A program made the translations under genes and the position numbers. The notes below the pieces were generated by a model. That model saw only the letters and a program-made list of their open reading frames with translations, was not told the origin of the DNA and made no database searches. DNA of 64,000 nt from the NCBI GenBank assembly GCA_020726505.1, contig JAHLEZ010000009.1, forward strand, positions 620,001-684,000. The letters run 5' to 3'. The stretch is from Leptodontidium sp. MPI-SDFR-AT-0119. Its lineage: Eukaryota > Ascomycota > Leotiomycetes > Helotiales > Leptodontidiaceae. Every line of letters starts with the position of its first letter. Position 1 is the stretch's first letter. Below are positions 30,801 through 62,409 of this stretch, piece by piece.

Positions 30801-31131
30801 TTTCCTCTTTTATTTCGCGACTATAGCCCAAAAGAATCGGTCACATTTTGAGCAATGCTCGTCAGTGTTAGAAGAGTACTTAAAATTTGGGGTTGACACA
30901 GACAGCTTCGTCCTTGGGTACACTCGCGACGTTCGGGAGTCTGTCATTTCCCAAAACGAGCGGGAAATAACAAGCAGGGGGAAGGAAGAGAGCGAACCAC
31001 CTAAGCAAGAACTCTTCTCAATTTCTCTGGAGGAGTTGGTTAGCCTTGGCAACCAAAAAATGTCGACGCCTTGCAGACTTTGCTCCGAGATAAGGCGAAA
31101 CAACCGTTTTGGAGCAAGACAAGCTCTGTGA
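27871..31131 (+). CDS. NLR: PigL_N-type N-terminus, NACHT, ankyrin
   Basis: Exon 1 27871-28292, intron 28293-28346, exon 2 28347-31131; joined frame 1,068 aa. The N-terminus MDPITAVGFAASILQFIDFS matches the helical domain at the start of many fungal STAND proteins. An acidic linker follows. The NACHT domain has P-loop ISGKAGSGKSTLMKF, Walker B RLCFFIDGLDEYEGD, CVSSRPH and GVFLWARLV. One ankyrin-like unit (TLLLSASIGRDSETVRVLLQ) lies near the C-terminus. These proteins act in the cytosol as non-self sensors. The end is suspect: from the run of six A's at 31055-31060 a different frame continues coding-like (NVDALQTLLRDKAKQPFW) to 31289. One extra A would join them, so the stop at 31131 may come from a homopolymer indel or sequencing error. 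Confidence 0.85.
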
Positions 31132-33483: not shown

Positions 33484-35908
33484 ATGACCCGTTTCCTAAC
33501 ACCCGCAAAGATTGGCCTTCTGGCACTAATCGAACTGTACACTGACGCCGTGGTGCCCAGCTCCTCTACTATCCCAATCCTCTCCTTCATAATCAATCAA
33601 CTACTGCCTTGTGCCTACAAGGCACAGCCACGAGAACCAAAGTCACTACAAACGCTACCCTTCATCCTGGATCTCGAATCCTTCGAAGCCCTCCTCACAA
33701 GCCACCCTGCAGCAGGTGGACTCCCAGGCCGTTCATTATGGGATCACTTCCTCCGGAAACTGTGGGAGATTGATAGTCTGGATGCTCTGCATGAGTTCTT
33801 TGCAACGCGGGGGAATCTTCTGGCCAGAAATCGAGAGGAGATCAAGAAAGATGGCGAGCTGGGAATCCCTCCTCCTTCCGATGACATGATCCTGCTCTCG
33901 CGGACGTCCCCACTTGGCAGCTTCATTCGCAGAGCAAAGGTGGAATACGAACGATTGAGGTTCAGCGATACCTTGTCGTTGTGGGTTGCGTTTGTGGAGT
34001 GGAGAGAAGAATCGAGGACATACTGGGCAAAAAGAAATGGTGGACTTGAGAGATGGGCTGGAGATAGAGTGTTGGCGGAAGGCCAGGAGGAGTGGGGACT
34101 GGAAGCAACAGAAATGCTGGAGCATATCACATACGGGGCATTGTCTACAGAGAATTCAAATCAAGGTGGGATTAGCACCGATGATGTTGAGAAATTGTTG
34201 GAATTCCAGGTTGAGCAGATGCAGAGTAAGTTTGTTAGCCCTTCTTGCAAGCTCCTCTCTAATAATGTCAGAACTTGGAAACAGGATACCCCACGAAGTC
34301 AAAGAACAGTTCAAGGCTGTGTTGGAGAAGAACATCATCATACCTAGCTTGTCCCATTATCTCAAGTAAGCTTTATGATCACACTGGCTTGAACTTCAAC
34401 TAATAGCACCCAGCTTTCTCGATGCATGGAGAGCCGGAGACTATCCTACATCGTTCGATAATCTACACCGGTACTTCGACTATACCATGCAAAACCGCGA
34501 CCGCCTCTTCTACCAATACGCTCTGATGAATCTGGCTGTTCTCCAAGCCGACTTTGGGTGCTTCGATGAAGCTGTGGCTGCTATGCTGGAAACAGTCTCA
34601 ACTGCTCGAGAAAATAAAGATATGGCTTGCCTTAACTTTGCTCTCAACTGGCTGTACCATTTCGGCAAGGCACACCCCAAAATCATGAAGGGGACAGATT
34701 CCACCAATATCCTGGGAGTCGAGAGAGAGGGACTTGCATTTCTCAGAATCAAGGCGAAGGAGACAGGCATGTGGACCCTCTGGAGCTCATCGTTGCTCAG
34801 CGAAGCTAAGCTAGGCATGTCAAACGGAGAAAGTGTGGCGACTGCTTTCGAGAACATCCTCAAGAGTTCACAGCTCATTGTGGAAAAGAACATGAAGAGC
34901 ATGATGGGTCCGCAGATGGCAATGCACTCTTCGCTATGGGGACGCTTGGGCGTGGCTCATCTGTCAAGACAATACTGCGATATATTTCTGACCTGCCATG
35001 CTCGCTACGCTCTGTTCGATGACACACTGAGGTTTACAACCAGGGTTGCACATCTACTCGCAGAGAGGGGTAGATACGACGAAGCTATGGAAAAGCTGGA
35101 AGGCTTGGATGAGAATTCTCTTCGGACCTGGAAATCCAACCAGTATTGGCTCAAGTATCGAGGTATCCTTCGGCTAAAGCGAGATCTACACAGAAACAAC
35201 CTGAGCGGTGCAGACCACCTCCTCTCACAGCTCACCCAGTGTAATAGCTCCGACACTGATACAGATCTTGCCTACGAAACCAATACCCTCCACATCGACT
35301 ACCTCATCCGACGTACGAATTACGGCCAGGCCCTAGCTAAGATCGAGCAGATGGCATCTGAGATGAAGGAGGAGGGAGATGACCTGAACCTGCGAATCAA
35401 GCTTCTCACCATGAAGGCATTACTACAAGATAAAGCCGGACGGCCTCAGAAAGGGTTCTCAATCGCAGTCAGAGCAGCAAGCATAGCATGGCGAGCACGA
35501 CTCATCCCGGCTCTCTGGGGCGCAATGGGAGCCATTGCCAATATCTTGACATCTTTGTCAGAATTCCAAGCTTCGTCCCAAATCCTGGTTGCGATTATCC
35601 CTCGAGCTCTCGAATACGAGAACTGCACACTGAACGCCCAACTATACTCCTTCCTCGTCGACGCATACATGGGACTGGCTGGACAAGCAGAGTCAGGAAG
35701 CCCGACGAGGAAAGAGAACCTCACGAGGTGCCTGCAGTTCATCGATCAGGCGTTTGACGAGTACTCGACCGTGGAGGATATCAAGGGACAGTGTGAGATA
35801 ATGGCGAAGAAAGCTACCATCATGAGGGTTGTTGGGGATAATGTTTTGGCGAATGACTATGCGAGTGCCTACCTTGACTTGAAGAAGGGGTTGTCCGTTG
35901 GAGCTTAG
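33484..35908 (+). CDS. APC5: anaphase-promoting complex subunit 5
   Basis: Three exons, 33484-34225, 34272-34365 and 34414-35908, join in frame to 776 aa, the usual size for fungal Apc5. The N-terminal part begins MTRFLTPAKIGLLALIELYT and contains the family's EFQVEQMQ; the middle has the conserved NFLDAWRAGDYPTSFDNLHR and FDYTMQNRDRLFYQYALMNLA. The rest is a TPR-like helical array (for example GCFDEAVAAMLETVSTAREN). Apc5 is a scaffold TPR subunit of the APC/C ubiquitin ligase in the nucleus, needed for mitotic exit. No disabling change. Its neighbours COX13 and APN2 form the conserved block that flanks MAT in many Pezizomycotina. Confidence 0.93.
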
Positions 35909-36758
35909 TAGTATGATACCCATGATTCGATGCATAGTAATGAAAGTATAAGACATGACTTCTGTTCTCGTTTGGTTGATGTTCATAGTGGGATGTCAAT
36001 TTAACACACGCATAGTGTATTCGCAGCTGGGCCTCTCCATAATTTCGTAGAGGGCGTTTTCTCCCACACGTTGCATATCTCTCAATATATCTTCAGTTCC
36101 CTAGATATCTTCCAAGTGAGTCAATTTCTTCTCACTTCTGAGCAGCAGCAAGTCTTCCTGAAACAAGGCTGAGTTCAACTTCTCATGCTGAGAAGGAACG
36201 GAAAGAGCATTTCACTTCGGGATACGATCTGTGAATATTTCTCTCTGGCTGTATTCATATACCTCTCCTTCCTCACATTCTCCAATGGCCCAACTGTCTT
36301 GTTTACTTCACTCGAGGCCTTCTCTTCTTGAAGGTCAGCAGCCTCGACGCTCTCCACTTGGCATACTCCTTCCTGTTTCTTCAATCTACTCTTCAACCTG
36401 GCGTGAGCTCCTGATGGAGTTCAGACACCATATCTGCCACTTCAATCTTCTCAATATTTTTCACAACTGTTCACCACTTCACTTCCCTCTCTTCGTCCCT
36501 CTCCAACAGCTCACTATTCCCCAACCCTCTCTGCTTCCCTCCTCCAACAAACCTACACCTCAAACAACACTCAACAAGGCCAGTTTGGTCACAAGGATTC
36601 ACAAGACTGCAAAACACCGATGTGGCTTCTAGTATTCCTAGGACTCAAGGAGAAATGTACAGTCTTGTCCGCCCGAACCTCGCCAGCAGCAACCTTCCCT
36701 TCCTTCACACATCCCCTCGACGCTCCTTCAAATCATCAACCCAATGCAATCCGAACCC
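35909..36758. other. region between APC5 and COX13 3' ends
   Basis: Convergent 3' ends. A pyrimidine-rich plus strand gives an open minus-strand frame at 36175-36396 (KKQEGVCQVESVEAADLQEE), without a recognised family. I do not call it a gene. Confidence 0.4.
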
Positions 36759-37476
36759 TTATTCGCTCTTCTTGTGGTAGTTGACCTTGTCGTTCCAGCT
36801 ATACGCTCAGTCAGCATCTGCATACGTTCATCCCCATTTCACCTTCCAAACGATCCATCAAACAACAGCTATCTCTGTCTCTCATCTCTCCAGGGCAAAC
36901 TTACAAGGCGGTCTAGAAGGCAAGTCAGCTAACAGTCACTTTTCCAACAGTATGTTCAGAGGAACTCACCTTATCTCCATCACCCCAGTAGAAGTTCTTG
37001 GTTCGGATGTTCTGGTACGGGTATTCGGGTCTCTCCTCCAAAGGCTCCATGTGCTCCCAGTGGGCCCAATGCTCATTCCACAAGACATACGCGTTGGCAC
37101 CGGCAATGAGCAGCGCTGGGATAGTCACGCTGCGAAGCACAAAAGGTCAGCATCTCTCCACTCTCGCAATCAAGGCTCAACCACTCCCCCCTCTCCGTCA
37201 AGGTATTCTCACTAGATAGACAACTTGCGCCACAAATCTGCGAACCAGTCAGCTTCCGTCTAACACTCCCCAATCTGCAGAGTACCTACCACTCGTAGCA
37301 GCAGCGTGGTCCTTCACAGCCTGTCTCTCGCGGTTGAAAGCGTTATCCTCGGCACCGTGGAAGGCAGAGCTCTCGGAGCTCGCAAATCGCCTCTGGAAGG
37401 GTGTTCGGACGGCTGGGGAGCGCAGCTGGGCAGCGAAGCGCTGGGAGGAGCGTAGCATTGTTCGTTGAGGGAACAT
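36759..37476 (-). CDS. COX13: cytochrome c oxidase subunit 6A (five exons, one of 8 nt)
   Basis: Exons 37290-37476, 37213-37237, 36970-37129, 36905-36912 and 36759-36798 total 420 nt and give 139 aa with all phases consistent. The N-terminus MFPQRTMLRSSQRFAAQLRS is a basic, Ser/Arg-rich mitochondrial presequence. The core DLWRKLSIYVTIPALLIAGA holds the single inner-membrane helix, followed by the family signature NAYVLWNEHWAHWEHMEP, EERPEYPYQNIRTKNFYWGD and the terminal KTAFWNDKVNYHKKSE. It is a nuclear-encoded regulatory subunit of respiratory complex IV. The 8-nt exon (accgcctt on the minus strand) supplies T-A and part of F and is needed to keep frame. Divergent from APN2 over a 301-bp promoter. 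Confidence 0.93.
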
Positions 37477-37777
37477 TTTCGTTGGTTGTTGGTGGTTCAA
37501 TTGCTCTTCTTGGGGATTCAATTGAGGGAGAAGTCGTACGTTTAACGTCGTTCCCGCAGCTTCGGATGCAGTTAGCGGATCTGCTGATTTTGGGATCACG
37601 TGGATGCAGATGACAACGTGAAGGAATCGTGATGAATGTTTGGTTTCAACGCGACGGACCGCGATAAGTTGTTCCAACTCTCTGTAGCTTGCGAGTTGGA
37701 GTGATTGAGTGGGCTATTGGTGCCGTGGAAGGGGGTGTCCTGAGAATCTAAGAGCTTCGAACAGCCAGTTCTTGAAT
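37477..37777. promoter_or_regulatory. COX13/APN2 bidirectional promoter
   Basis: 301 bp separate the COX13 ATG (37476, minus) from the APN2 ATG (37778, plus). Both promoters lie here. No TATA-like element or specific site can be assigned with confidence. Confidence 0.55.
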
Positions 37778-39972
37778 ATGGAGGAACAAGACCCGGAAAA
37801 GCGGGGTCTTCGAATTACAACTTGGAATGGTAAGTCTTCTAGAATAGATGGCGATCTGGAGAATGGGTTTGGGACTAATGTTGAGTAGTAAATGGAATCA
37901 GGTCAGATCTTACAACCTGGCTGCTGTGGAAGAAGCTGGGCATTGAAGATTCAGGGCTGACTTGAGCAGAAACCCATTTGGCTATCAGCCATGGCGTCAA
38001 GAAAGAACATATGCTGTAGGCTAAACCGCTTGGAAAACATATTGTGGGGATTTGTTCTGACTACTCTAGGCTATGTTTGATATTCTTGAGGCTGACATCG
38101 TTGTCATGCAAGAGACGAAGATTCAAAGGAAAGATCTCCAGGATGATATGGTTCTGGTCCCTGGGTGGGATGTCTTCTTCAGCCTTCCAAAGCACAAGAA
38201 AGGTATAATGATCTGGTAACCTCAACGGTTCATTAAGCTGAAAGTTTGTCACAGGATACTCAGGAGTTGCCATATACACACGAAATGCTGTTTGTGCTCC
38301 TATTCGTGCTGAGGAGGGCATCACAGGTGTTCTGACCCCTCCCAATTCCACCACAAGTTTCAACAATCTCCCAAAAGACCAGCAGATCGGTGGTTATCCA
38401 ACTCTCAGCCAGCTCTCTGACTGTGCCCTTGATGCTGCAACACTTGACTCTGAAGGCCGTTGTGTCGTCCTCGAATTCCCAGCGTTCGTCCTCATCGGCA
38501 CTTACTGTCCTGCAACCCGAGATGAGTCGAGAGACGAGTTCCGAATTGGCTTCTTGAATGCCTTGGATGCCCGTGTGCGTAACTTGGTGGCTGCTGGCAA
38601 GAGAGTATTTCTGACTGGCGACTTGAACATCATTCGAGAAGAGATGGATAGTGCGAAGGTCGAAGAGCACTTGCGGAAGCAAGGCATAACCCTCGAGGAA
38701 TACTTCTCCGCACCCTCAAGAAGAAGACTGAATCAACTCCTCGTCGGCGGCAAGGTCTATGGAGAGCGTGATGAGGGCAGGGAGAAACCCGTCATGTGGG
38801 ATATATGTCGGTCCTTCCATCCAACTCGCGCTGGGATGTTTACATGCTGGGAGCAGAAAATCAATGCTCGGCCTGGAAACTTTGGGTCTCGGATCGACTA
38901 CGTACTCTGCAGCCAGGAATGGAAGGATTGGTTCTGCGAGTCCAACATCCAAGAAGGTCTCATGGGCTCTGATCACTGTCCTGTGTATGCTATATTGAAG
39001 GAGAAGGTCGATATTGGTGGCGAAGAGGTGTATACGAGAGATATCATGAGCCCTGGGTTCTTTAAGGATGGCGTGAGACAGCGGGAATGGTCTGCGAAGG
39101 ATTTGCTCCCTATGTCTGCCAAACTCATCCCAGAGTTCGATCGTCGGCGCAGCATACGGGATATGTTTACCAAGAAGCCCTCGATGCCAACAGCTGAGAG
39201 CTCCATGTCCACTGTTCGAGAAGAAAGCCAAGATAAAGTCTCATTGCCGCAAAGAAGTGTTGTATTGAACGAGGAAGCCACAGAGACTCTCGAGAGCAAA
39301 CAAACTTCTGGCGGACTCGAAGTAAGCAGCTCACAGATATCAGATCTCTCGACCACAGCAGACCCCAAAGACCCGTCAGCTTCTTCTATGCCAAGTCCAG
39401 CAAAGCCTCCCAAACGACCCAACGAATCCTCCTCAATCAGACCCCAGAAACGAGGTAAATCTGGAGCTACATCCAAGTCAACAGGGAAAGGACCATCTGG
39501 GAAGGGACAGAGCAGCCTGATGGGATTCTTCAAACCCAAAACGCAGCAGACAGATAGCCAAGCTTCATCCACGCTCGATGCGGAATCCGATACCACCAGC
39601 CTCGCAGACAATGATGTCCCCTCCCAGTCGCCTACGCCAGCCCGGTCAGAAATAGAAGCAACCCCAGCATCGCAGAGTCTCGAGAGCGGGTCTCCCAGCA
39701 AGCCCTTCAATCTCGCCGAACAGAAAAGCGTCATCGACCCTATAGTCTCGAAGGAGAGCTGGTCGAAGCTCCTGGGGAAGCGGGTGGTACCTCGATGCGA
39801 ACACAATGAACCGTGCATCAGTCTTGTCACGAAGAAGCCCGGTCCCAACTGTGGCAGATCTTTCTACATGTGCCCACGGCCTATAGGTCCATCTGGACAG
39901 AAGGAGAAGAACTCTCAGTGGCGGTGTGGGACATTCATCTGGAGTAGCGATTGGACAGGGGATGGGAGTTGA
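37778..39972 (+). CDS. APN2: AP endonuclease 2 (class II, EEP fold, Zf-GRF)
   Basis: Five exons, 37778-37829, 37889-37901, 37970-38015, 38070-38202 and 38255-39972, join in frame to 632 aa; exon 2 is only 13 nt. Catalytic motifs of the exonuclease III family are present: LRITTWNVNGIR, VVMQETKIQ (metal Glu), FLTGDLNIIREEMDSA (Asp-Asn), RIDYVLCS and GSDHCPVYA (Asp-His). The C-terminal part has a PCNA-interacting PIP box QSSLMGFFKPK and a GRF zinc finger (PRCEHNEPC...GRSFYMCPRP...WRCGTFIW). Apn2 repairs abasic sites and 3' blocks in the nucleus. No damage seen. In many Pezizomycotina this gene borders the MAT locus on its downstream side. Confidence 0.95.
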
Positions 39973-40029
39973 GGGTGGGAAGGAGGATATATAAAGTCGG
40001 CTTCGGGCCTCAGCCGCTGTATCTAATCA

Positions 40030-40400
40030 AAGAGAAGTCTACATGGCTGCTTGTAAGATGACGCTCTACTTCGTACATGCTTCTAGGAGACATATGCTGA
40101 CCGGCTCTTCTTGCAGAAGCAATATACATGGCTAGATTTAGGTTTTAGGCTATCTACTTGAAGCGTCTTTGGAAGTCTGTAGAGATGCTTGTAAGATTAT
40201 GCTCTTCAATCCATGTCTTCAGGAGATACCTGCTGACCAGTTCTTCCTGTAGAAGTGCTTTGCGGGGTGGGCTTTGGGCTTCAAGCTATCTTTCTATGTA
40301 CTTGAAGCATATTTGGAGGTCTGCAGAGCTGTTTGTACGATGATGGTCTCCAATCCATACTTCCAGAAGATACAAGCTCACCAATTCTTCCCGCAGAAAC
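40030..40400. repeat. three imperfect tandem repeats, period about 140 bp
   Basis: Copies begin at about 40049 (gcttgtaagatgacgctct), 40187 (gcttgtaagattatgctctt) and 40329 (gtttgtacgatgatggtctc). Each contains a variant of ggagatacctgctgaccag and ttcttcctgtagaag. No convincing protein is encoded. They lie right after APN2. Confidence 0.75.
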
Positions 40401-40703
40401 ACATCTTCCTTTCCACCATCTCTTGATCGATCAGCTCCTCGCCATCTCTACAACGGGCATCATTGGGAAGGATTCTACGGAGGCAGAGGGAAAGGACACA
40501 GGAAAGCTGCTCAACTATGCTTGCGAGTACAAATGGATCACTGTTATACTAATGGAATCTATGCTGTGAGGGGAGGAACACTTCATGGAGGCAATCAAGG
40601 CAGGGAGGAATAACCACGAATAATGGAACACATTGTGACATCATCCTCCTCTGCAATCCAAATCCAAATCTATGCACTGGAACACTTGCAGGGAACTAGT
40701 TCA

Positions 40704-40853
40704 CATAACTTTAGATACCAGCAGAAGTATCATGATATTGATGCGCTGCATGTCGCTATCCATTGATGTGACATCAATTCATACATTGAGTGAAGCCCAT
40801 AATGTCGCCCAAAGGCTGCGACCCCGTCGTGCCTGCACCAAACATTCACGCAT
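40704..40853. repeat. dispersed 150-bp repeat, copy 1
   Basis: From cataactttagataccagca to cattcacgcat. It recurs in the same orientation at 49304-49461 with about ten substitutions, mostly transitions, and one 8-bp indel. Confidence 0.8.
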
Positions 40854-41090
40854 TCCCTGGGGGAAACCCAAAGAGCCAGTCAAGGAGTACGTCGAGCCAT
40901 GCACAATATCCAGTCCATTAGCTGATGCCTAATCTTATTCTGTTGGCAAATAATTGATTGGCAGTCGTTCGCCTCTACTGTTGGAGTTGATTTGAACTGG
41001 TGGGGTCAGTTCCAATCGTTCGAACCGCCCGCTGCTTCCGTTTGACCTGACGGCGCAATTTGAGCTCCTGGGAAGGAATGCGGCTCCGTT

Positions 41091-42202
41091 TTGCTAAGCG
41101 TGCGGCGCAGGTGCAAGAAGGTTGTCAGCAGGAGGGAGGCCAGAGATCAAGCTTGCCTGGAGGCACTTGCACGCTATGACGCTGCTGCCAGAATAAGGAA
41201 GGCTCAAGAAGCAGAGGACCGTAGGATGGCGAAGCTTAAAGAGGCCGAGCATAAAAGGGTGTTACGCAATCAGGAGAAGGAGTTGCGACAGGCCGAGAAG
41301 CTGGCCGAGAAGCAGGCTAAAAAGCAGAAACGCGAGTCTACTATCCAGGCCAAGAAGGCAGAGAGTGCCCTGCTTCGAGAACGGGTAGAAAGACAGAGGA
41401 GCGAGAGGTCTCTCGGAGTTGCTCATAGACAAGCTGTACAGGATCTAGAAGAGGGGGTTCGTCGTCGGGATCGGGAGACGCGGGATAAAGCTGGTAGACA
41501 AGCTCTCTAACGTCATAAAGCTGCCCTTAAGGCTTAGAAGGCCTAGCAGAAATCACTTACAAACGGACGTATTGTTACCTTTAATAGTGTCCTTCTATTT
41601 TTCCTAGATGAGGAGTACTAGTATATAAAGCAAACTTCGGTCGATTTTCTAAAAGAGATCACCTCCGATATCTAGATAAGGTGTATGAGGGATTACTAAA
41701 GGGCGATCTTAGATGCCTCGAGACGTTTGCCATGTGGAATTTGTGGGGGCTTGTTCTAAGAGGACGAGATGGTGAGCATTGACCTTCAAGCCGGTGACCT
41801 ACGGTACTTCCTCTAGAGAACGAAGACGGCCTCCGACTGTTGCGCCATTAAAGACGATCAGTTAGTCTATGTGCTACCTGTAGCTCGGCGATTGCCAAAC
41901 GGGCCATCCCTCCGCTTTCGGCTAGTAACTTTGTCAACTGCCTGTTCTGTTAAGACTACCCAGAGGCTCTGAAGAATCTCAATACTGTCGAAGAGGCTTT
42001 CATAGCACGGGCTTATGTTATTGGCATCTTCTTAAAACTCACTTCGGGTGCTAAAGGGGGGATTAGTTATAGGGGGAGTCGCGGTCATTCTGTCGCCGTG
42101 AGGCAGGATCCGAGTGAGCTCTTGAAGATCTTACCAACTGCGAGGTTACGAGATCATACGACGATCACCGTCAGTTGGGATCGTGGGACCCCCCCGTCCT
42201 GA
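41091..42202 (+). pseudogene. Helitron helicase N-terminal remnant (DUF6570-like) with coiled-coil lead-in
   Basis: The first 139 codons form a charged coiled coil (EAEDRRMAKLKEAEHKRVLR...) ending at 41510. Interrupted frames then show DEEY, PCGICGGLF-stop-EDEMVSIDLQAGDLRYFL, a one-base frame change, and ATCSSAIAKRAIPPLSASNF, NCLFC, ALKNLNTVEEAFIARAYVIG and RGSRGHSVAVRQDPSELLKI. The two CxxC pairs, IPPLS, EE-IAR and RGHxxAxxQDPxELL blocks are those of the DUF6570/Helitron-like N-terminal region found in fungal Helitron replicase-helicases. Several TAG/TAA stops and the shift make it dead. The Rep and helicase domains are not found downstream, so the copy is truncated. Confidence 0.75.
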
Positions 42203-43787
42203 CCAAAGCATCGCGTATGACGCAGAATATCTCGGAGACGAGAAAGAGATAGAATACACTGGGGAAGATTTCTTTTCATTGTGGGCAGAATAGTAATTTA
42301 TATACATCTAAACCCACTTTTCCCACCGCGTCCGGCGGTTCCATACTTCATATACTGCTCACGATATTTCCACAGTTCCCGCGGTTGACACAAGCGTGCA
42401 CTCTATGAGAGACGCCTTCAAGGAAAGCCCGCTAATTGGAACAAGACCTTATTGTTCGCAAGGGCGAAAGGTGGTTCGTAACCGCTTGTATAGGGGTAGC
42501 GAGGGCGACTAGGGAAGCGATGGAAAGGAAGTAGAGGAGATTGAGCTGTGAAATATTGTGAGCAATTCAACACATTCTTAAAGAGTTTGACTCGATTGGG
42601 TCGACATACTCTTGGACGTTAATGCCTTCAGGCTGAGATAGGCGATGATATTTCCAACTATCGTTGCTCCTACACTAGCCAGGCCCAGAGTTATGGCAAT
42701 GATGTCCACGGTTTCGAGAGCTGGGAGAGTATCAGAAGCCTATTCGATCTTGAAGGAGAAGCTTACGCATGTTTAATCATAGGATTTTGAGTTATCCCCA
42801 CATGATGGGAAGAGGTTTTGAACGTTGGCATCCGAGATAATATAGATGGGTGTCGAGAGCCGGAGTCTGAAGAAGAGGATTTTTCGGGAGTTCGCAAAGA
42901 GTAAACATGGTGGCCGTGGGAAGGGAAGAAGGCAATAGGACCTTTGGATGACCCAATCGGAGGATGAGATTTGGGGAAAGCATTGATGGTACCTTTGGAG
43001 TAAGACAAAAGAATGGAGTGAAAATGAATGAAGTCCACAAAGTCAATGCATCGTACTATTGTAGTCAACTTAACAGAGAGGATGTGTCCAGGAAGGAACA
43101 GAGGAAGATTTAAGGTTGTTGCTATGGATTGTATTGGTAGCTGGATGTTTGCTAATGCTGCATGGCCCCTTTTGTACCTTTCGTAGCTCGTGGTCCTGTC
43201 TGTCGGGCGAGACATTCCATGACCCCGTTGGCTTCGATGGATTGGCGGCACACCGTTTGTGGCATTATCATTCCAACTTTGAGTCTTCCGACCCTGACGA
43301 GCAGGGATGTTGCCACGAATGAGGATGAATCGTACCTTTGTAGCGTGGTGGATAAGCGGCATGGTTTGCACAGCCTTGCGTTCTGCCCTGTTGGTAAGGG
43401 AATGACGTCTCTCACCGCCCACGGCAAGTCCCGAAAATTCCCCTGTCGTGCTGCAACGTGGAGCGCCTCGCCTTGGGGGGAGTGCTTACAACCTTGCCAG
43501 CTTCACCTTCATCATTCAGGTCGGTGGTAGTTCCATAACAGTCCGTATTTTTCGAGGCGCTCAGTGGTGTTCTGGCCAGCTCTGGATCCTGGCGGCCGTT
43601 CCTTTGCATGTCCAAGGTCGACACACAGGCGCCACCAAACACTGCTGGCCCCTTTTGACTCTTATATGGTTCCCTCTCCTCCTCTTCCAACATCCTTTCG
43701 TGTTGACTAGTATTCCTCTCTCGCACAAAAGTATTTTGCTCTGAATTCATTTCGAAAATCTTCTGGTATCTCTCTCGCATTCTGACC
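42203..43787. other. gene-poor stretch with a possible small membrane exon
   Basis: On the minus strand 42578-42739 reads DIIAITLGLASVGATIVGNI..., an apparent membrane helix ending in a normal stop and preceded by an AG acceptor-like site, but no start exon could be joined to it. Open frames at 42763-43530 on both strands look like shadows. The last part is the presumed promoter of the Clr5 gene. Confidence 0.3.
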
Positions 43788-46262
43788 ATGGATTCACCAT
43801 GGAATCATGCTGGCTTAGAGGGATTTATTCCCCCGCTAGCCTTCTTCTCTCTGCCCTCGAACAATCGATTTACGCAACCTGAACCACAATCGCATGTACA
43901 TACTAGGCCGTCGCTGGCTGGCCGGCAAATGGAAGTACGAAAGTATACCACAAACGACTGGAATACCCATAGAGCGGAGATCACAAGGCTGTACGAGGAT
44001 GAGACTCTGCCGACTCTTATGGAGTTCATGAGACAGAACCATGGGCTTGATGCTACGTAAGGAGCCCTAATTTTTCTAGTATATGCCAACAACTGACTTA
44101 TTATCAGCCCGAAACAGTACAAGGATCGATTTACGAAATGGGGTGTCCAGAAGAGCATCCGACCAAGGGAGATGAAAGCTATGTTAAGGAAGGAGCAGAA
44201 ACGGGAACCAAAAAAATCTGCCTTTCGACTCCGAGGAATAGATGTCACAGCAAAGGTCACAAGATATAAATATGAACATCCGGGGTCGCCTTCTGGCGTA
44301 AACAAAGATTGGGACATGGACAAGAACATAGACTCAGCACGTATGACTCCTGCTCCAGCAAATCCTTAGATGAATATCTAACTAATTTATGAACGTGTAG
44401 CTACCCCTGGGGCTATCAGCTGCTACACACCAGTTCCGGGGCCTCTTACTCCACACGCGGCCCCAAGTCCACAAGCAAGTTCGGTTGCACACGCTAGCGG
44501 GAACCCACAATCTCCGATTTCTTATCAAAGCCCGTATGATGGTTCATATCAGTTTGGCGATCCGGCTTTCACACTCCCTAGCTCGCATTCAGTCGTTCAG
44601 ATGACCGGTAGCACTCATAGACAAGCTTCGTCACCAATGTCAATCGCCACCTCGCCAACCCTTTCCGCTCCCATTGAATTAAGTGGAATTGTGTTCACAG
44701 GTCAAAGCCCGGCGCCATTCTCCGTCCCATCGACTCCTCGATTGCAAGATCGTGACCGGATGCAAGATAGAGGAATGGGAGTTATGTGCGATAATGGCGA
44801 TCATTTCGCTAAACAGCAGATGAGTTCTTTCGATGAACATATAGCTCCACTACTTTATGCTACGTCTAGTCCCTTTTCACAGCTATTTGGAACCGACCCT
44901 TCTCGAGACTATCATACTGGAGATCATTTCGCTAAACAGCAGATGAGTTCTTTCGATGAACATATAGCGCCACCACTTTATGCTACGTCTAGTCCCTTTT
45001 CACAGCTATTTGGAACCGACCCTTCTCGAGACTATCATACTGGAGAGGATGATGTGTTCGGTATTGCTTCTGGTATAACTGCGGGTCTCACTGCTATGCC
45101 TTTGTCAGAAGTGTATGCAGCAATGATCTTATCTGTCAACGATGCTCTGATTATTGATCAATATATCGCATTTCCGGCAAGCCTTGGAACGCTGGGAAAA
45201 AGGCACAAACTAGCTGAAACGCTCTGCCGTCAGGGCAGGTACGAGACTGCCACACAGATACACCGACAAACGCTACAGCTGAGGGAGGAGGAACTAGGGT
45301 TGAAGCACCCCGATACGCTAGAGAGCATGCACGAGCTAGCAGTGGCGGTCTGCTATCAGGGCAGGTACGAAAATGCCGAGAAGATGCACCAACAAACGCT
45401 ACAGCTGAGGGAGGAGGAACTAGGGTTGAAGCACCCCGATACGCTGGAGAGCATGCACGAGCTAGCAATGGTGTTCTACTGTCAGGGTCGGTACGAAAAT
45501 GCCGAGAAGATGCACCGACAAACGCTACAGCTAAGGGAGGAGGAATTAGGGTTGAAGCACCCCGATACGCTGAAGAGCATGCTCGAGCTAGCAATGGTGT
45601 TCTACTGTCAGGGCAGGTATAAGCGAGCAGAGGAGATGATGCGACGGGCACTTGATGGGTACGAGAAGGTGCTAGGTAAAGAGCATCCCCACACGCTCAG
45701 GAGCGTCCTTTGTCTGGCCTGGGTACTTCGGTCTCAAGGCAACTACAAGGGAGCAGAGGAGATGATGCGACGGGCACTTGATGGGTACGAGAAGGTGCTA
45801 GGAAAAAAGCACCCCGAGACGCTTAAGAGCGTCCTTTGTCTGGCCGAGGTGCTACACTTTCAAGGTAATTATAAGGGAGCAGAGGAGATGATGCGACGGG
45901 CACTTGATGGGTACGAGAAGGTGCTAGGAAAAGAGCACCCTGGGACGCTTAAGAGCGTCCTTTGTCTGGCCCAGGTGCTACACTCTCAAGGCAACTACAA
46001 GGGAGTAGAGGAGATGATGCGACGGGCACTTGATGGGTACGAGAAGGTGCTAGGAAAAGAGCACCCCGAGACGCTCACGACCGTCTATTGTCTGGCCAGC
46101 TTACTATGCTCAAAAAAGCAGTATCACGATGCTTCACTATATTACCAACGAGCGAGCGCTGGCTATGAAAAGGTACTTGGATTGAACCACCCCACCACAA
46201 AAGGATGCATTAAGGATTACTTGGCTATGTTAGATGGAATGAAGGCCGCAGAAGGGCTCTAA
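43788..46262 (+). CDS. Clr5-domain protein with kinesin-light-chain-type TPRs
   Basis: Exons 43788-44056, 44108-44340 and 44401-46262 join in frame to 787 aa. The N-terminal Clr5 domain reads DWNTHRAEITRLYEDETLPT, MRQNHGLDATPKQYKDRFTK and WGVQKSI. A Ser/Pro-rich linker contains a 41-residue segment (DHFAKQQMSSFDEHIAP...) present twice in tandem (units start at 44799 and 44922). The C-terminus has eight TPRs of 42 residues (QGRYENAEKMHRQTLQLREE; QGNYKGAEEMMRRALDGYEK). Adjacent repeats are almost identical in DNA. Clr5 was named from a fission-yeast silencing factor; together with TPRs it resembles the sensor end of fungal NLRs but has no NTPase domain. No disabling change is seen. Confidence 0.85.
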
Positions 46263-46439
46263 GGAGTCCGCGAAGCCCATCGACCAAGGTTAGGACATCC
46301 GCGATCAGCTTAGGGATCTCCAAGTCACCCCCTGGGCCCCTGACCAGAAAGATGAGTGCCGTATGCCACCACCAATAGCCTCGATCAAAAGCTCCAGCAA
46401 TGAACCAACCTCAACGTTGATCGATGCATCTTCAGTGAC

Positions 46440-47279
46440 GTGCGTTATAATTCCTGGAATCCCTTTCCAGCACATCGACAAGTCTTGGGCACCCGTAGCC
46501 CGTATTTGGATGACGCATTACAAAGCGGTTTCAAAGAAGGCATAACACATGAGATCAGTTTTGAAAAGGACAGCCCGTATACCCTTTGGCGAGCACTTCA
46601 AGAATCTAGCGCCATTGGACATGGACGTCTCTACATGACTCGCTCTCGCTCTCTCTTTGCAACCCCCGCCGAAAAAGCGAGGAAGATATTGGACAAGGCA
46701 ATAAGTGTTCTGAAGAGAAGAGCGACATATTTTGAGGGTGAAAAATTGATAAAGGAAAGTGAGCTCGGGCGTAAGCAGCAATGCCTGGAAAAGGAGCTCA
46801 TAATGAGAAAGCGGGATTTAGTGGCTTTTTGTTGCTTTTGCGGGAACGAAAGAGAGTTCAGGTTGAGGAAAACTCCAATGTCGAGTATCCCAGCGGCCAT
46901 GAGCACAACCCTCAAACAAGATTGGGTATCTATAGTTTACAAGAGCGGTATCGAAATGCACGGGCGTACTTGTGCGTATCTGAGCTCGGCTAGTTTATGT
47001 ATCTGTACCCGGGAAGAGCGCATGCTCCGGCATTTTTTCCGACGAGAATCACAGTTGGAGAAGGAGATGTACGTAACGGCATTAGCCTTTGAGGACAAGA
47101 ACTTCATGGATCTCAGGAAGAGGGCGCTAGGACGGAATGGCCAATGCTCGTGCCCGCCTATTGGCGTTGCCATTATCGGAGGACCAACCACACCCGGTTT
47201 GCCTGCGTTCTTCGCCAAGGAATGTTTAACAAGTGAGGCGGGATCGATGGACAAGACGACGAGGGAAAGATTTCTCTAG
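46440..47279 (+). CDS. hypothetical protein, 279 aa
   Basis: Open frame with a basic, helical middle (KARKILDKAISVLKRRATYF, EKLIKESELGRKQQCLEKEL) and Cys-rich patches (CCFCGNE, CICTREE, CSCPP) that do not form a known zinc motif. An overlapping frame from 46363 is also open and coding-like (PIASIKSSSNEPTSTLIDAS), so the real start may involve an intron or a frame change near 46540. It lies 177 bp after the Clr5-TPR gene on the same strand. Family and function unknown; it shows neither an HMG box nor an alpha box. Confidence 0.45.
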   Translation: MRYNSWNPFPAHRQVLGTRSPYLDDALQSGFKEGITHEISFEKDSPYTLWRALQESSAIGHGRLYMTRSRSLFATPAEKARKILDKAISVLKRRATYFEGEKLIKESELGRKQQCLEKELIMRKRDLVAFCCFCGNEREFRLRKTPMSSIPAAMSTTLKQDWVSIVYKSGIEMHGRTCAYLSSASLCICTREERMLRHFFRRESQLEKEMYVTALAFEDKNFMDLRKRALGRNGQCSCPPIGVAIIGGPTTPGLPAFFAKECLTSEAGSMDKTTRERFL

Positions 47280-47447
47280 GTGGCAAACAGTGCAAAGTTT
47301 TGAGCATGAATTTACATGAATGGACCGAGGGAAAACTAAATAACTGAACTAAATGGTTAGCACGAGAAAAGTTTATAAAATCTCGTTTCACTATCCTACA
47401 ACCGCCTCCACATTTAACCGTTATCCTAGAAAATCTTGAATGTGCAT

Positions 47448-47860
47448 TTACGCACCACTAGCTCTCACCCCAGGCTTTCGCCCCCGCTTCCGAGGCTTTC
47501 CCCCTTGCTTCGTGAAGAAGTTGTCCTTCAGTGACTGCAGTGTGTGGCCTGGAAAATGCCGTCCGTACGTGAAGATGCTCAGAGCTCCCGCAAAGGGCTC
47601 CACATTGCAGTGTCGCCGCAGCGCAGTATCACCTGTTGAGCATGGTCGAATAGCGCACCTGGATGGCCCCCATGCTCCGGCAAGGGAGGTCCTTATGGAT
47701 CGTTTTCCACGAACAATCGTACTTCCTTGTTAAGAGTATCGCATCCTCTTTCGTTGACCAAGGAACCCGGCTCTTCTTTGATTTCAGCGGTGTCTAAGAT
47801 GTCGAGGAATATATAGTAGCTTTATAATCGTTCTCCAGTGCTACAAGATTAATACCATGC
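47448..47860 (-). pseudogene. Myb/SANT-domain gene remnant
   Basis: The minus strand reads NDYKATIYSSTS, a TAG (47794-47796), then PLKSKKSRVPWSTKEDAILL, KYDCSWKTIHKDLPCRSMGA and IQVRYSTMLNR, a Myb/SANT-like helix-turn-helix with its Trp pair. A plausible intron (donor gtgata after LNR, acceptor cacactgcag) leads to LKDNFFTKQGGKPRKRGRKP, an AT-hook-like basic tail, ending TAA at 47448-47450. The TAG can be a Gln codon changed by C-to-T. Upstream exons are not rec¬ognised. Probably a decayed chromatin- or DNA-binding protein gene. Confidence 0.6.
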
Positions 47861-48124
47861 CATGGCGCCGCCCGCGTTGTGGGAACCCTAGCTTTCAGCC
47901 TAAGGCAAGATTCTGTCTGGGCAACGTCCAAAAGTTGTATACTCAAGTCACGATTCGCTGTTAGGATTAACGATTATTATCTTTATAATTACAAACTACA
48001 GCTCTAGACGGATATGCTTTCTTATTAGGAGTTGATACACAGTTATATCCGTTAACATAACTAAATATTAAGAGGCTTTCGTCCTGCTTTACGATATAGA
48101 TCCCTGCGCCTAGGACTAGGCTAC

Positions 48125-48500
48125 TGTAACGTTCTTAGTTCTGACTAGTACGCGGCGGACAGGCTCGTCGGTTGGTATTAGCTAAGAAGTAAAGTCACAA
48201 GAGGTTCGGTTCTCAATTGGAATTGAGACGTTATAGGCAATAGTTACACTGCTATATAAATTTGAGCACGAAGCTCTATTACCTAGGAAACTACTCTTGT
48301 TTATATAGAACTTCGTAACATTGGACCTCGCTGGACCCCTGGCGATCCTGGCGGTCCTAGCACGTGACCCATAGTCCCCGTGATTCTCTTCTGCTTCCCT
48401 TCCGAGGCTAAATTTGCAGTGCAGGGTTCGGTGGCTTCTCTGTGCAGCGAAGCTGCCGAGCCTCAGGGCCAGGACTCGCGTGATCCTTCAGATCGTGACA
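48125..48500 (+). repeat. LTR-like sequence, left arm of a large inverted pair
   Basis: Begins TGTAACGTTC and ends ATCGTGACA, the TG...CA form of an LTR. Its reverse complement lies at 48762-49197. It is flanked on both sides by a 22-bp direct repeat (48103-48124 and 48504-48525, cctgcgcc...ggctac, two transitions). No 5-bp target duplication is seen. Confidence 0.7.
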
Positions 48501-48761
48501 ATTCCTGCGCCCAGGACTGGGCTACATGGAGGGCGCTGAAGGCAGATATCACAAGGCAAATTTACGGCGTGCGGAGAAGTAGAATCAGGGAACATTCGAC
48601 GCGTGCTTTATGTTTAGATCGTAAAGGCTTAGATAAGTAATTTATACGAGATTCTAAAGCTTTTTAAGTAGGTTTTAACTAACGCCTTAGTAAGTGTTAA
48701 ATACTACGGTATATGCTGCGGTTTTTTTTTAATCTACTTTTGTAAAGTAAGTTAAGTTATT

Positions 48762-49197
48762 TGTCACGATCTGAAGGATCACTCGTGTCTTGGCCCTGAG
48801 GCTCGGCAGCCTAGCTACACAGAGAAGCCAAGACACTATAACCGGGCGCAGCGAAAATGAAAAAACACTGCAATTTTGGTGTCGCGCGCGGCAAGGACAG
48901 AATCAGGGGACCAAGAGTCATGTGACGGCATAGAGCTTTTGGAGCTTTAGGATCTAGGGCTCTAGGAACCTCAGAGCCGCAGGCTCCCTGGGGATCCGGT
49001 TAGTATCGAAGTTCTATATAAACAAGACTAGTTTCTTAGGTAGTAGAGCTTTGTGCTCAAATTTATATAGCAGTTTAACTATTACTTGTAACGTCTTAAT
49101 TCCAATTAAGAACCGAACCTCTTGTGACTTTACTTCTTAGCTGATACTAACCGACGAGCCTGTACGCCGCGTACTAGTCAGAACCAGGAACGTTACA
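48762..49197 (-). repeat. LTR-like sequence, right arm of the inverted pair
   Basis: Reverse complement begins TGTAACGTTCCTGG and ends ATCGTGACA. It is about 60 bp longer than the left arm through indels. The two arms are separated by 261 bp. No target duplication is seen. Confidence 0.7.
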
Positions 49198-49303
49198 GAA
49201 ATGGGGCAGATTGTGTTCTAAGATTGCGTCTAGTACTTTTCTTTGGCTTCTAGACTAGGACAGTACACAATAGGATAGTCAAGAATGTCCCGAGTGCAGG
49301 GGG

Positions 49304-50272: not shown

Positions 50273-52371
50273 CCTATCCCCTTAAATGCCATTCCATACA
50301 CGTCGCTGAAGAGCCTGTAAGAATGCCCTGTAGAGCCTGTAAGCGAGGCCCTAAATTAAGCGAACATCACCAAATTTCGTCCCCCACCCAAAATTGAGCT
50401 GTGAGCGCAATAGATTTATGATTTTCTATGGTAGAGGTCAAAGCAATGGTTATTATTACAAAGGTTGACCTGACACTGCTTGCACCCAAAGATTGTAGTC
50501 TTCCGAGTTGTGGGACGGCCAGCATTAATAGCTATTTCTGCCAGAGCTATTCTTTTTCTCGGTACCGCCTCCCAAAGCCTACCCCCTTTGCATGCCCAAC
50601 AATCTGACCTAGTAGCCAATTTAACGTGCTCGTGGCGATAGATAGGCACTTTATACTTGTCTTGGGATATGCCTGAGTGCCGGCGTTTCCTTGATTCCAC
50701 TGGGGCGATAGAGGCGTCCGATACCTCTAGGGTAGCCTTACCCATTACTATTAAAGCCTCAATAATCTGTATTCTGAAATCGTCTTGACTGCGAAGGTTA
50801 ACTGTACTCTCTTCAACCTCACAGAACTGTGCGATTAAATAACAGTTACTCAAGACGACCAAAAGTAAGAACTGATGTAGGGCCTGTACAGCACCCCTAC
50901 GCAAGCGACGTAAACCAGCGTTATGACCTTGCAGTTGATCCCCCATATCGACATATCCCATATTATGGTTATAGGCGTCGTAGAGCTGAGGAATCCAAAG
51001 GTGTTTGGTGGCTTTATCCCCAAAAGGAACCCTTGATGTTGCTGCATTACTGGATGTCAATTTAGGACGTTTTCGCAGCCGTAAGACCTTCTTTATGCCG
51101 TCCCAAAATGTCGACATTGCAAGAGCAAAAGCGCTGTCTTTAAACCCGGTTTGGTTGACCATATTCGACTCAGTTGGGAAGGCATGAACTATTCCCCAAG
51201 GCATAGCATTCGGCCCTTTGTCCTTAGCCTTCAAATCAACCAAATCTTTAACAATTCCAGAGGACGTACGTGCTGTACCGGTTGCCGCATGGCCTAACTT
51301 CCGTAGATATTCAAAAAGAGAGACCGACGTAAACAAGTTATCAAGGTAAACGTGGTAGTTGGCAGGCGGGAGTAGGCTCAAAAGATGTGGCACCACAGAC
51401 TGAGTTTTGTTGATTTCCTTCGGTTTTCGTACCCCAACAGGCCCTCCTTTCTTTCCTGGTCTATGAAACACCCATCGGAGAAAGAAACCTCGTTGTGCAA
51501 CAACCCATATCTTTAACCCAGTCGAAATAGGCTTTCCAGGGACTGTCGTAATGTTTTTCGATCGACCAGTATATCGCTTGATGGCTTCGTCTACAGCAAC
51601 ATCTCTGCCAGGGCGCCACATTCGAGTATTAATAGATTGAACGTGCGAGTTAAAGGGTTCAACCTAAACTTAGAATTAGCCAAATCTATAAGAGAATAAA
51701 GGAGATATTTAACCTTTTCATAATCATCCGTCACATCCGGATGTGCCATACGAAATCGGGTACGAAGCTCTAAGAACCTATTCTTGGAAAAACAACGAGT
51801 AATATCATGGAAAGGCGTAATCCTCTTTATATTCCAATAGTCTTCGATCTTGTTTAATGGATAAATTGTCATATAAATCAAGAATGCGAAGAAGAGGTAC
51901 AGCTCTTGTCGACTCGTTGGATACCACTTTTTGGCACGGCTATTAGGCAAATCTTGGGTCGGTTTCTCGTACGCATTTGTAGCTTCTACCATCCTATCTA
52001 TCATTTCAGGCGTATAATACTGTGTAAAAAGTGTAATAGGATCGTTGGGAGACACATCTTCAGGTAGGTCAAGCTCCATGTCGAATTCAGGGCAATCCAT
52101 AGGTTCAAAATGCGTCCCATGCCTCTCGAGTGGTTTTTGCGCTGGCCGCAGGGTGCCTGCATCAGTGGGATCCTGTACCGTCGATTCCGGCATGCTTGGG
52201 TATCGTAAAATACGCAAAAAGTAGGTAAATTTGGTGAGGATGAGGGCCTTTGTTTACTTCTTTGTTTACCAGCGCACGGGCCCTGTAGGCCCTGTAATGT
52301 GGGGCCACTTAGCGTACCGCTACAGGGCCAGTCGCTGAAGGTGACGTGGATGCGGCATTTAAGGGGATAGG
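50273..52371 (-). mobile_element. piggyBac element, 2.1 kb, apparently intact
   Basis: Perfect 18-bp terminal inverted repeats CCTATCCCCTTAAATGCC at 50273-50290 and 52354-52371 contain the tetranucleotide TTAA, the piggyBac target, at matching positions. Subterminal CCTGTAA/CCTGTAG motifs recur at both ends. The single gene inside encodes a full transposase without stops. The true boundary may instead be the TTAA itself (target duplication) with the outer nine bases belonging to the site. Confidence 0.85.
50416..52217 (-). CDS. piggyBac transposase, 583 aa
   Basis: Exons 51714-52217 and 50416-51663 with a 50-bp intron (GTTAAATAT...AGTTTAG) join in frame as DYEKVEPFNSHVQSINTRMW. The DDE_Tnp_1_7 domain shows the three Asp residues in RDVAVDEAIKRY, YHVYLDNLFTS and YVDMGDQ, plus GKKGGPVGVRKPKE and the conserved PWGIVHAF. 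The C-terminal Cys-rich domain (CWACKGG, FGCKQCQVNLCNNNHCFDLY) is complete. Length and motifs equal those of working family members. The alternative start MPESTVQ lies eight codons in. No RIP-type stop is present, in contrast with all other transposons in the window. It may be mobile, or may be kept as a domesticated gene. Confidence 0.9.
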
Positions 52372-52788: not shown

Positions 52789-54534
52789 TCAGATCCACTT
52801 CCCTCCCAGCCAAGCCAAAACAGTGTAAGATACTATCAGCAGTGGTACTGAAACTGCGAACCAAGTCCATAGATGCACAGCATTGTTGCTGAACAGATCA
52901 AGGTTCATACCGAAGAATGATGTCGTGAAGCTCAAAGGTATGTAGAAGAAAGCCAGTCTCGTAAGCTGTTCCACTTTCTTGGCTTGGTCAATTGCACGCT
53001 GGGACTCGGCAATCGCAGCAGAGCTCATACATACCTGCATTCCATCCTGACAGCGCGCGGATATTTTCTTGGTACGAGAAAGAAGAGCTCGGAAATCGGT
53101 GAGCAGGTTCTCGGTCCCTTCATTTGCCTTGGTACTGCCTTCGACGGATTTATTATTGCCTCCACCATGAGATCTGGGCCAGTTCATTTTCTTGCTACGA
53201 TCCAGCTCGAAAATATTGTCATGAAGCTGGGATTCCAGTCGAACTAGAATGTCTTGATTATATGACAGATTGGCAAGACTGTAATTCTGAGATATGTACT
53301 GATTGTACCCTGTATTTTGGTTGATAGTGACTTCGATGAGATTCAGTACTTGAGAGATTGACGAGGCGGAGGCTTGAAAGAGCTCGGTAAACGCATAGAA
53401 TGAATCCAAACGCAGAGTGTTCACATCTAGGGATTTGCCATAGTTCTGTGCAAGTAACGTGGCCGACTGAGTGAACGCCCCAGGCCATGGGTCAGGTTCC
53501 GCCGTTCTTAAGGAGGAGGACGGAGCTTGAATTGCATCTGGAGGGAAGTCCTGAACTATTGGAAGGAATGTTGATTTCCGTGCAGTGCTTCTCCTTGATC
53601 TCCTCGATCGATCAGGCCGCCATGGCCCTTCGGGACCGAATCCCAAATCCTGTCCGATGTCTGTCCAAATTATTGCTGTCATGGAGTTAGCGAGGTCAGA
53701 ACGCATCCGGTGTTTGTGTCTCGTACCGACCCATTTGTCGCCCACAACTTGGACGGTCATTGTGATCTCTTGCTCAACGGAGAAGTATCGAGCGTTGTGC
53801 ACATTGAAAGCACGGACAATCGACATTCCTGGTTCGAGCCTGCGCTCAAGATGTAGTTCTTGAAAATAGTTCGCCATTGCAGTCTCACTTGCGTCACGCA
53901 CAGCCCGCAGATCAGCTTCCTCTTTGCCAGCTTCAGATGGATCATTCTCTGTGTCCCCAATCGTGAATATACGTAATCGCAAGATATGAAATGATGCCGA
54001 TGGTAGGCTGGGTGCCGCAAAAAGTCTCAGAGGTCTCGATGACCAGATATATTCGAGATGGCGTTTAAAAAATAAAGGGTTGATAGCACACATAGCTCCA
54101 AGACGTGTTAGACATTCAGGGGGTTGGTGGCCACGCATGAAGATTATCGCATGCTGCCATTGAGGCAACTTTTGATAGCCGGCTCTTGGGCATAGCATAT
54201 CCCGCAGGCGATCTAGTTCTTGGATATTCGAACATGTGACTATGTTCATATTCTCTGGAGTCGCGGTTGATGGCAGGATGGTACGGACAGTAACATCAAC
54301 ACTCAGTTGCGCTCGTTGATTGATGTCACGACTAAGATGTGCAGAGAGTCCCTCAAATAGCTCACCCGAGAAGAGTGAAGTTCCAATAATCTGCTGTGAT
54401 AATGAAGTTACTCGCTTAGCATAGTCTTCGGAGCTCATGACTCCAGATACTCGATCACCTGTCAGTAAAAGCAGAGGACTTCAAGGTACGCAAGTTTGAA
54501 ACTTACAGTATGATGCGTGGAATTGAGAAGACAT
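52789..54534 (-). CDS. CorA-like divalent cation transporter family protein, 565 aa
   Basis: Exon 1 (54507-54534, MSSQFHASY) and exon 2 (52789-54458) join in frame; the ORF start at 54438 would miss the first 16 residues. A large soluble N-terminal region with helical coiled-coil segments precedes two membrane helices at the end, LAFFYIPLSFTTSFFG and LWTWFAVSVPLLIVSYTVLA, with the GMN signature (FFGMNLDLF) between them, which forms the selectivity filter of CorA/Alr Mg2+ channels. Fungal genomes hold many such divergent CorA-like proteins, and their ion is not certain. No disabling change. A minisatellite lies just upstream, in the promoter. Confidence 0.85.
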
Positions 54535-60986: not shown

Positions 60987-61213
60987 TGTGACGGCGCAAC
61001 AAGGAGTGGTCCTATTACAAGAGCTACATACGAGAACTGTAAGATACAGAGGAAAGAGGAGCTCAAGGTGAGCCTCTCTCTCATAGAGCCCAGAGGACGC
61101 TAAGCCGGCTAGCGTGTCGTTAGGCGAGCACGCGTATAGCAAGGCTGTGGAAGCACGAGGCTGTGAAAGCACGAGCACGTGACGGTGAGGTAGGTCGATG
61201 GTGAACCGTTACA
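60987..61213. mobile_element. solo LTR, 227 bp, with ATTGT target duplication
   Basis: Starts TGTGACGGCGC and ends CGTTACA. The five bases before it (60982-60986) and after it (61214-61218) are both ATTGT, the 5-bp duplication expected of LTR retrotransposons. No internal region accompanies it. The termini resemble those of the LTR-like arms at 48.1-49.2 kb. Copy 2 of the AT-rich repeat follows at 61535. Confidence 0.85.
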
Positions 61214-62391: not shown

Positions 62392-62409
62392 CTACCCCCC
62401 CCCCCCTAA

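Follow-up and report, generated by a model that had tools for sequence, protein, structure and literature searches.

Where are the mating-type (MAT) genes of Leptodontidium sp. MPI-SDFR-AT-0119, if not beside APN2? The window, a stretch of 64,000 bases, carries the conserved APC5-COX13-APN2 block of the MAT locus with no MAT gene next to it. It corresponds to positions 620001-684000 of contig JAHLEZ010000009.1 (C69 in the following; 2,806,342 bases of a genome of 69 contigs and 76,969,438 bases). A previous sequence-only reading had offered three options, namely that the idiomorph was lost, moved, or pushed away by repeat expansion. The last one is best supported: 362.5 kb of DNA, mainly of a type resembling the product of repeat-induced point mutation (RIP) where examined, intervene between APN2 and the MAT genes. 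The window probably represents the APN2 shoulder of a MAT1-1 locus that has been greatly stretched by transposon insertion and RIP, in the course of a growth of repeats along the whole contig.

The block consists of three genes (window positions and strand):

33484-35908, plus strand: APC5, conserved outer flanking gene of the MAT locus; ANAPC5 domain (E 3e-37), one-intron stop-free model of 778 amino acids
36850-37476, minus strand: COX13 (COX6A); COX6A domain on the first exon, further open exons, 3' end approximate
37778-39972, plus strand: APN2, the inner flanking gene; Exo_endo_phos (E 1.6e-12) and a GRF zinc finger (Zn_ribbon_GRF, E 4.9e-6), stop-free model of 654 amino acids

Pfam domains and open frames agree with the order and orientation APC5(+), COX13(-), APN2(+) proposed in the sequence-only reading. 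For COX13, COX6A was matched on one exon with an E-value of 3.5e-5 and 24.6 bits, just below the 25-bit cut-off, and its main exons, from 37476 downwards, form open frames. A rough script that picks the longest frame produced the spliced models of APC5 and APN2, in the latter of which the 5' exons are provisional. The block lies within a gene island that is flanked by repeat DNA on both sides. APN2 is single-copy in the genome, which rules out a second APN2 close to the MAT genes; on the left, the 362.5-kb gap was taken to begin at its stop codon. The absence of MAT genes and of SLA2 from the window was likewise confirmed, as all matches to PF04769 (alpha box), PF00505 (HMG box, high-mobility group) and PF01608 (SLA2) fall outside positions 620001-684000. 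Between APN2 and the end of the window, genome-wide searches with PF04769 and with PF00505 at E-values up to 10 gave no sign of a hidden alpha- or HMG-box gene.

The MAT genes lie further along C69 and adjoin SLA2 (C69 positions and strand):

1022471-1023907, minus strand: HMG gene (MAT1-1-3 by position); open spliced model of 445 amino acids, HMG_box E 2.1e-9 once spliced
from 1024282, plus strand: middle gene; open spliced model of 325 amino acids
1025797-1026950, plus strand: MAT1-1-1 (alpha box); open spliced model of 350 amino acids in three exons

PF04769 has its sole genome-wide match at C69:1026013-1026504 (plus strand), with an E-value of 3e-33 that improves to 3.5e-41 once the gene is spliced. 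The sole match of the SLA2 domain PF01608 (I/LWEQ) is located at C69:1028691-1029089 (minus strand, E 4.6e-50), and the SLA2 frame ends about 1.6 kb past MAT1-1-1. Splice sites of the MAT genes were chosen from the sequence without transcripts, and the last site of the middle gene is a longest-frame choice among many. Along C69 the order is APC5(+), COX13(-), APN2(+), 362.5 kb, HMG gene(-), middle gene(+), MAT1-1-1(+), SLA2(-). Past SLA2 follow a gene with PH and MMM1 domains, presumably Nvj2-like, a family-B DNA polymerase with a C4-type zinc finger, which we take to be REV3-like, and then SLU7. Among these MAT genes, no block of RIP-like composition was observed. Loss of the idiomorph, one option of the sequence-only reading, is hence rejected by the PF04769 match and by open spliced MAT frames that adjoin SLA2 on C69. 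Relocation to another contig fails as well, since the MAT genes and SLA2, with their PF04769 and PF01608 matches, share C69 with APN2 and stand in the order known from relatives.

By its position on the APN2 side of MAT1-1-1, the HMG gene is putatively MAT1-1-3; compared with PDB sequences, its best matches are the HMG boxes of SOX and SRY proteins (E 1.6e-6). The middle gene may, again by position, be MAT1-1-5; for its 325-residue protein, Pfam gave no match at E-values up to 1. Alternatively, the HMG gene could be MAT1-2-1, which would make the strain homothallic with a fused, stretched locus. We regard this as very doubtful. The intron of the HMG box sits in a serine codon, presumably the position found in MAT1-2-1; however, the box reads PENSWVLYL and not PPNAYILYR, which we take to be the MAT1-2-1 sequence. 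That the two genes are easily confused follows from Palmer et al. (PMC4169168), where, in the excerpt available, a MAT1-1-3 query returned MAT1-2-1 proteins as top hits. On the other hand, the HMG gene occupies the place that MAT1-1-3 has in Pseudogymnoascus destructans, whose consecutive locus tags are given in the same excerpt as apn2, MAT1-1-3, MAT1-1-1 and sla2 (PMC4169168).

A search for HMG boxes at E-values up to 0.001 gave nine matches genome-wide and none on C69. It missed the HMG gene of the MAT locus because an intron splits the box, and the silence of this search alone was therefore not trusted. At E-values up to 10, PF00505 gave 15 matches, none of them in C69:620001-684000. These include half of the HMG box at C69:1023150-1023257 (E 0.059), a positive control for the search, and five further weak matches on other contigs, one of them with a stop. 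By eye and in comparison with known relatives, the nine stronger matches resemble other HMG proteins, and none is MAT1-2-1-like. With these nine of the matches outside C69 read, MAT1-2-1 is likely absent from the genome. As a side observation, an HMG-box family with an apparent SAM-like stretch (judged by eye) has four copies (C13, C7, C18, C19), two of which have a stop in the box.

MAT regulators act in trans, and we know of nothing that requires APN2, COX13 or APC5 to adjoin the MAT genes. Given this mode of action and the lack of a RIP-like block among the MAT genes, the strain would mate as any MAT1-1 partner does in a heterothallic species.

The distance from the APN2 stop to the stop of the HMG gene is 362.5 kb, where some kilobases would be expected for a MAT1-1 idiomorph; up to the end of the SLA2 frame it is 368.6 kb. 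In other Leotiomycetes the locus is compact. According to excerpts of the respective papers, two homothallic members of Pseudogymnoascus have APN2-SLA2 distances of 13.2 and 12.4 kb (PMC4169168), and the MAT1-1 locus of Diplocarpon coronariae comprises 13.9 kb, with MAT1-1-3, MAT1-1-5 and hypothetical genes listed between the DNA lyase and SLA2. The 368.6 kb observed here are 26 to 30 times these three figures (12.4-13.9 kb). The order APN2, MAT1-1-3, MAT1-1-1, SLA2 is nevertheless that of P. destructans, and SLU7 and a DNA polymerase gene lie near SLA2 as they do in Hymenoscyphus, again judging from an excerpt. As the SLA2 side matches the relatives, in order though compared without orientations, the departure consists in the distance to APN2.

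In order to characterize the intervening DNA, sequence was classified as RIP-like if TA/AT exceeded 0.89 and (CA+TG)/(AC+GT) was below 1.03, which are the usual cut-offs, in 500-base windows or 1-kb samples. The stretches checked contain no N (C69 positions):

610-630 kb: 31 of 40 500-base windows RIP-like
630-660 kb: 3 of 60 500-base windows
660-681 kb: 10 of 42 500-base windows
681-754 kb: 130 of 146 500-base windows
760-961 kb: 18 of 20 one-kb samples
970-1000 kb: 60 of 60 500-base windows
1000-1022 kb: 19 of 44 500-base windows
1022-1090 kb: 16 of 136 500-base windows

A longer gene-rich stretch thus starts on the MAT-SLA2 side. The part of the gap that belongs to the window contains the following features (window positions and strand):

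40034-40398: diverged short direct repeats just past APN2 (self-alignment, 71% over 230 columns)
44382-46262, plus strand: TPR gene (TPR_12, E 2.2e-94) with 126-base tandem units (TRF)
50416-52253, minus strand: piggyBac-type transposase in two overlapping frames (DDE_Tnp_1_7, E 1.8e-21 and 1.2e-17)
52789-54480, minus strand: CorA-like gene (CorA, E 6.3e-8)
56632-58008, minus strand: pieces of an amidase gene (Amidase, E 1.4e-29 and 6.4e-5, the latter below cut-off)
59179-60738, minus strand: NB-ARC/DUF7779/TPR pieces resembling a NOD-like receptor (NLR) gene (DUF7779, E 3.9e-23; NB-ARC, E 5.7e-8; TPR)
61001-64000: start of AT-rich RIP-like DNA (GC 0.32-0.40, dinucleotide ratios), the type found in most samples of C69:681-1000 kb

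Among the elements that the sequence-only reading had placed beyond APN2, the direct repeats (40034-40398, and a pair at 40704 and 49304 with 87% identity in self-alignment), the TPR gene and the piggyBac-type element were recovered. Clr5, Helitron and Myb/SANT had no match in Pfam scans, which covered the submitted open reading frames of the window. The name piggyBac is the one we presume for the Pfam family DDE_Tnp_1_7; a diverged relative of this element (67% DNA match) lies at C69:973493-974897. Further matches to reverse transcriptase (RVT_1) or to a long interspersed nuclear element (LINE) are found in the gap at 744-746, 828, 836, 859-862 and 905 kb, together with transposase frames. 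Insertions and RIP are thus supported by transposon matches and by base composition, respectively. The TPR gene contains, at window positions 44791-46097, near-identical tandem units of 123 or 126 bases (90-96% matches), which suggests recent unit turnover.

The gap also contains genes of other kinds. Of 12 genome-wide matches to the CorA-like gene, a single one is full-length, and the remaining 11 are partial and 26-43% identical. Similarly, the genome holds no other full-length copy of a gene for 778 amino acids at C69:1001724. It is therefore not plausible to regard these two as transposon cargo. To the left of the HMG gene, the closest gene in which a Pfam domain was found is an NLR gene at C69:1017977-1019998. 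It belongs to a family of 69 matches, nine of which are on C69. Two relatives within the gap, at C69:929639-931234 and 976385-977977, are riddled with stops and lie on the same strand (minus), which suggests a putative duplication followed by RIP; a partial match at C69:816266-816601 (minus strand) is free of stops. A SesA protein (E 1.6e-39) with a C-terminal NACHT_sigma match below cut-off is encoded at C69:735910-737595 (minus strand) in a GC-normal island; it is reminiscent of the amyloid-signalling partners of fungal NLRs. Just left of APC5, at window positions 28297-31131, lies a gene for a NACHT/NPHP3_N protein with DUF7791 and an ankyrin match, so that NLR-type genes flank the block on both sides. 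Pairs of NB-ARC and amidase genes also flank it, at window positions 12657-18079 and 56632-60738, in opposite order.

Genes without another full-length copy in the gap, and NLR-type genes near both of its ends, would fit a chromosomal rearrangement, by inversion or translocation, whose breakpoint lies between APN2 and MAT1-1-3 and which imported a pre-existing repeat-rich, gene-poor block with its own single-copy genes. Such a rearrangement is conceivable, although we hold it to be unlikely. A single inversion that moved MAT jointly with SLA2 is excluded by the conserved order APN2, MAT, SLA2. Moreover, the two edges share no long repeat (blastn, E 1e-10): the best alignment comprises 98 columns with 77% identity (669684 versus 1021261), in a comparison that is blind to short target-site duplications. 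A long repeat at both edges, as the scar of a single insertion, was accordingly dismissed, as none exceeds about 100 columns.

Is the growth of repeats confined to the MAT locus? All counts of RVT_1 rest on 150 scored matches of 523 candidates. C69 holds 23 of the 150, compared to 5.5 expected from its length (3.65% of the genome; binomial P 7e-9, independence assumed). Per Mb, C69 has 8.2 of these matches, C8 has 5.7 and C13 has 5.1, against an overall value of 1.58 for the 16 other contigs of at least 1 Mb. Among the 17 contigs of known length in this class, C69 therefore ranks highest; contigs such as C23, C45, C56, C67 and C68, whose length is unknown, do not enter this comparison. Transposons are enriched on C69 relative to other contigs, which are not known to be chromosomes, and the RVT_1 matches on C69 spread from 357 kb to 2.53 Mb. 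RIP-like DNA follows the same trend: it was observed in 12 of 20 samples taken elsewhere on C69, in 1 of 20 on C12, C34, C7 and C13, and in 6 of 19 on further contigs, sampled 30 kb from one end (12/20 versus 7/39, Fisher P 0.0025; positions were hand-picked and not random, and two of the C69 samples lie near the window). Matches to the protein of a LINE in the window are also concentrated on C69, with 11 of 70 including its own copy (2.6 expected) and 10 of 69 without it (P 2e-4). This LINE-type element, at window positions 7664-9589, combines RVT_1 and RNase H and has copies on C4, C5, C8, C9, C10, C13 and C41. Several stop-free copies are about 97% identical to that of the window and exist alongside heavily mutated ones, which suggests that the element was active recently despite RIP.

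The AT-rich core of the gap (approximately 851-1000 kb) might also be a regional centromere that was present or was formed between APN2 and MAT; the distance would then reflect a centromere and not gradual growth, and segregation of mating type would take place in meiosis I. The size is comparable to that of regional centromeres mutated by RIP in filamentous fungi, and the core is RIP-like in 10 of 10 samples at 860-961 kb as well as in all 60 windows at 970-1000 kb. RIP-like DNA is, however, so common elsewhere on C69 that such a block needs no centromere. The stop-free NLR match at 816 kb and GC-normal samples at 800 and 850 kb argue against the gap being one block, and the sequence data used contain no CENP-A mark. 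We therefore judge a centromere to be quite improbable.

Two core-gene families seem thin on C69, on weak evidence. Helicase_C has 0 of 120 matches (4.4 expected, P 0.012) and RRM_1 has 1 of 85 (3.1 expected, P 0.18), and matches within the same gene are not independent. A more far-reaching interpretation, to which we assign a small chance, is that C69 forms a large part of a degenerating, sex-chromosome-like MAT chromosome. Recombination would be suppressed over hundreds of kb to Mb, repeats and RIP would have accumulated, core genes would have been thinned and NLR-type incompatibility genes have become MAT-linked; APN2 and SLA2 would be the split remnants of the old locus.

Several points weigh against a locus stretched by transposons and RIP. 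Firstly, the density of RVT_1 in the gap equals that on the rest of C69: three of the 23 matches are located in these 12.9% of the contig, as length predicts. The gap is thus a sample of a repeat-rich contig and not the site of a local invasion; neither the transposon invasion at this point that the sequence-only reading had envisaged nor a locus-specific burst is supported. Secondly, the ends of the gap are not entirely repetitive. Only 10 of 42 windows are RIP-like at 660-681 kb, where the CorA-like, amidase and NLR-type genes lie, and 19 of 44 at 1000-1022 kb. Accretion of transposons alone is insufficient to explain these parts, and a gene-bearing block may have come in. Thirdly, the 216 kb between 754 and 970 kb were sampled only as twenty 1-kb pieces, and for the ancestral distance the figures published for other species were used, with gene order compared without orientations. 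Finally, a misassembly may be involved, in which two pieces were misjoined via a repeat; the join would fall in repeats, which is where assemblers err. This is extremely improbable, because both sides are on one 2.8-Mb contig with no N in the stretches checked, and a chance joining of the halves of a conserved block in the right order is hardly to be expected.

A stretched MAT1-1 locus could have arisen as follows. A compact ancestral locus (12.4-13.9 kb in the three relatives) would have grown between APN2 and MAT1-1-3 by successive transposon insertions, with some duplication and gene gain, and RIP would have followed. Growth at MAT would be part of the growth of repeats along all of C69. 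Crossing-over is presumably low near the idiomorph, and insertions may persist there unpurged. RIP would have mutated them, and the resulting heterochromatin might have lowered crossing-over further.

The observed distance has practical consequences. MAT genes are usually located through APN2 and SLA2, either by polymerase chain reaction or on short contigs. With 362.5 kb between APN2 and MAT, walking from APN2 would not reach the MAT genes, and the species might be mistaken for one without them. In addition, this ascomycete MAT region is very long, retains its gene order and lies on the contig that ranks first in the density of scored RVT_1 matches among the 17 large ones measured. Whether transposons and RIP drive or follow the suppression of recombination at MAT thereby becomes testable.

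Large MAT regions have been reported from other ascomycetes; the following statements refer to the excerpts of the cited papers. The MAT1-1 idiomorph of Chrysoporthe austroafricana comprises 133.8 kb and the MAT region of C. cubensis 45.0 kb (PMC10298223), and an insertion of 200 kb with over 60 genes was described for C. cubensis (PMC10998396). As in Chrysoporthe, transposable elements lie between MAT and flanking genes here, and the large region holds extra genes. In contrast, APN2 is inside the locus of Chrysoporthe and the gene order is another one; the present locus retains the order, and its insert has mostly RIP-like composition in the parts examined. The MAT locus of Blastomyces has about 60 kb compared to about 21 kb in other Ajellomycetaceae (PMC5852033). 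It resembles the present case in its expansion between SLA2 and APN2/COX13 and in a larger genome (PMC5852033), but it is about six times smaller and belongs to another class of fungi. In Amauroascus mutatus, two idiomorphs are 184 kb apart (PMC5852033).

Non-recombining MAT regions of filamentous ascomycetes are treated in detail for Neurospora tetrasperma, Podospora anserina and Schizothecium tetrasporum and briefly for Cryphonectria parasitica (PMC7898863, PMC9949647). RIP and the silencing of transposons are discussed as proximate causes (PMC7898863). In the first three species MAT lies, as it seems to do here, on a chromosome stretch with signs of degeneration; the region of S. tetrasporum differs in that it has not accumulated transposons (PMC9949647). 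The excerpts of these two papers treat no extended suppression of recombination in a leotiomycete, and an APN2-SLA2 interval of the present size was not met in the literature searched, part of it seen as excerpts, which does not prove its absence in print. The locus is of a known kind, a transposon-expanded MAT locus. What is new, with respect to the published excerpts compared, is that the gene order is kept, that the stretching affects the APN2 side only, and that the interval is longer than in the cases found.

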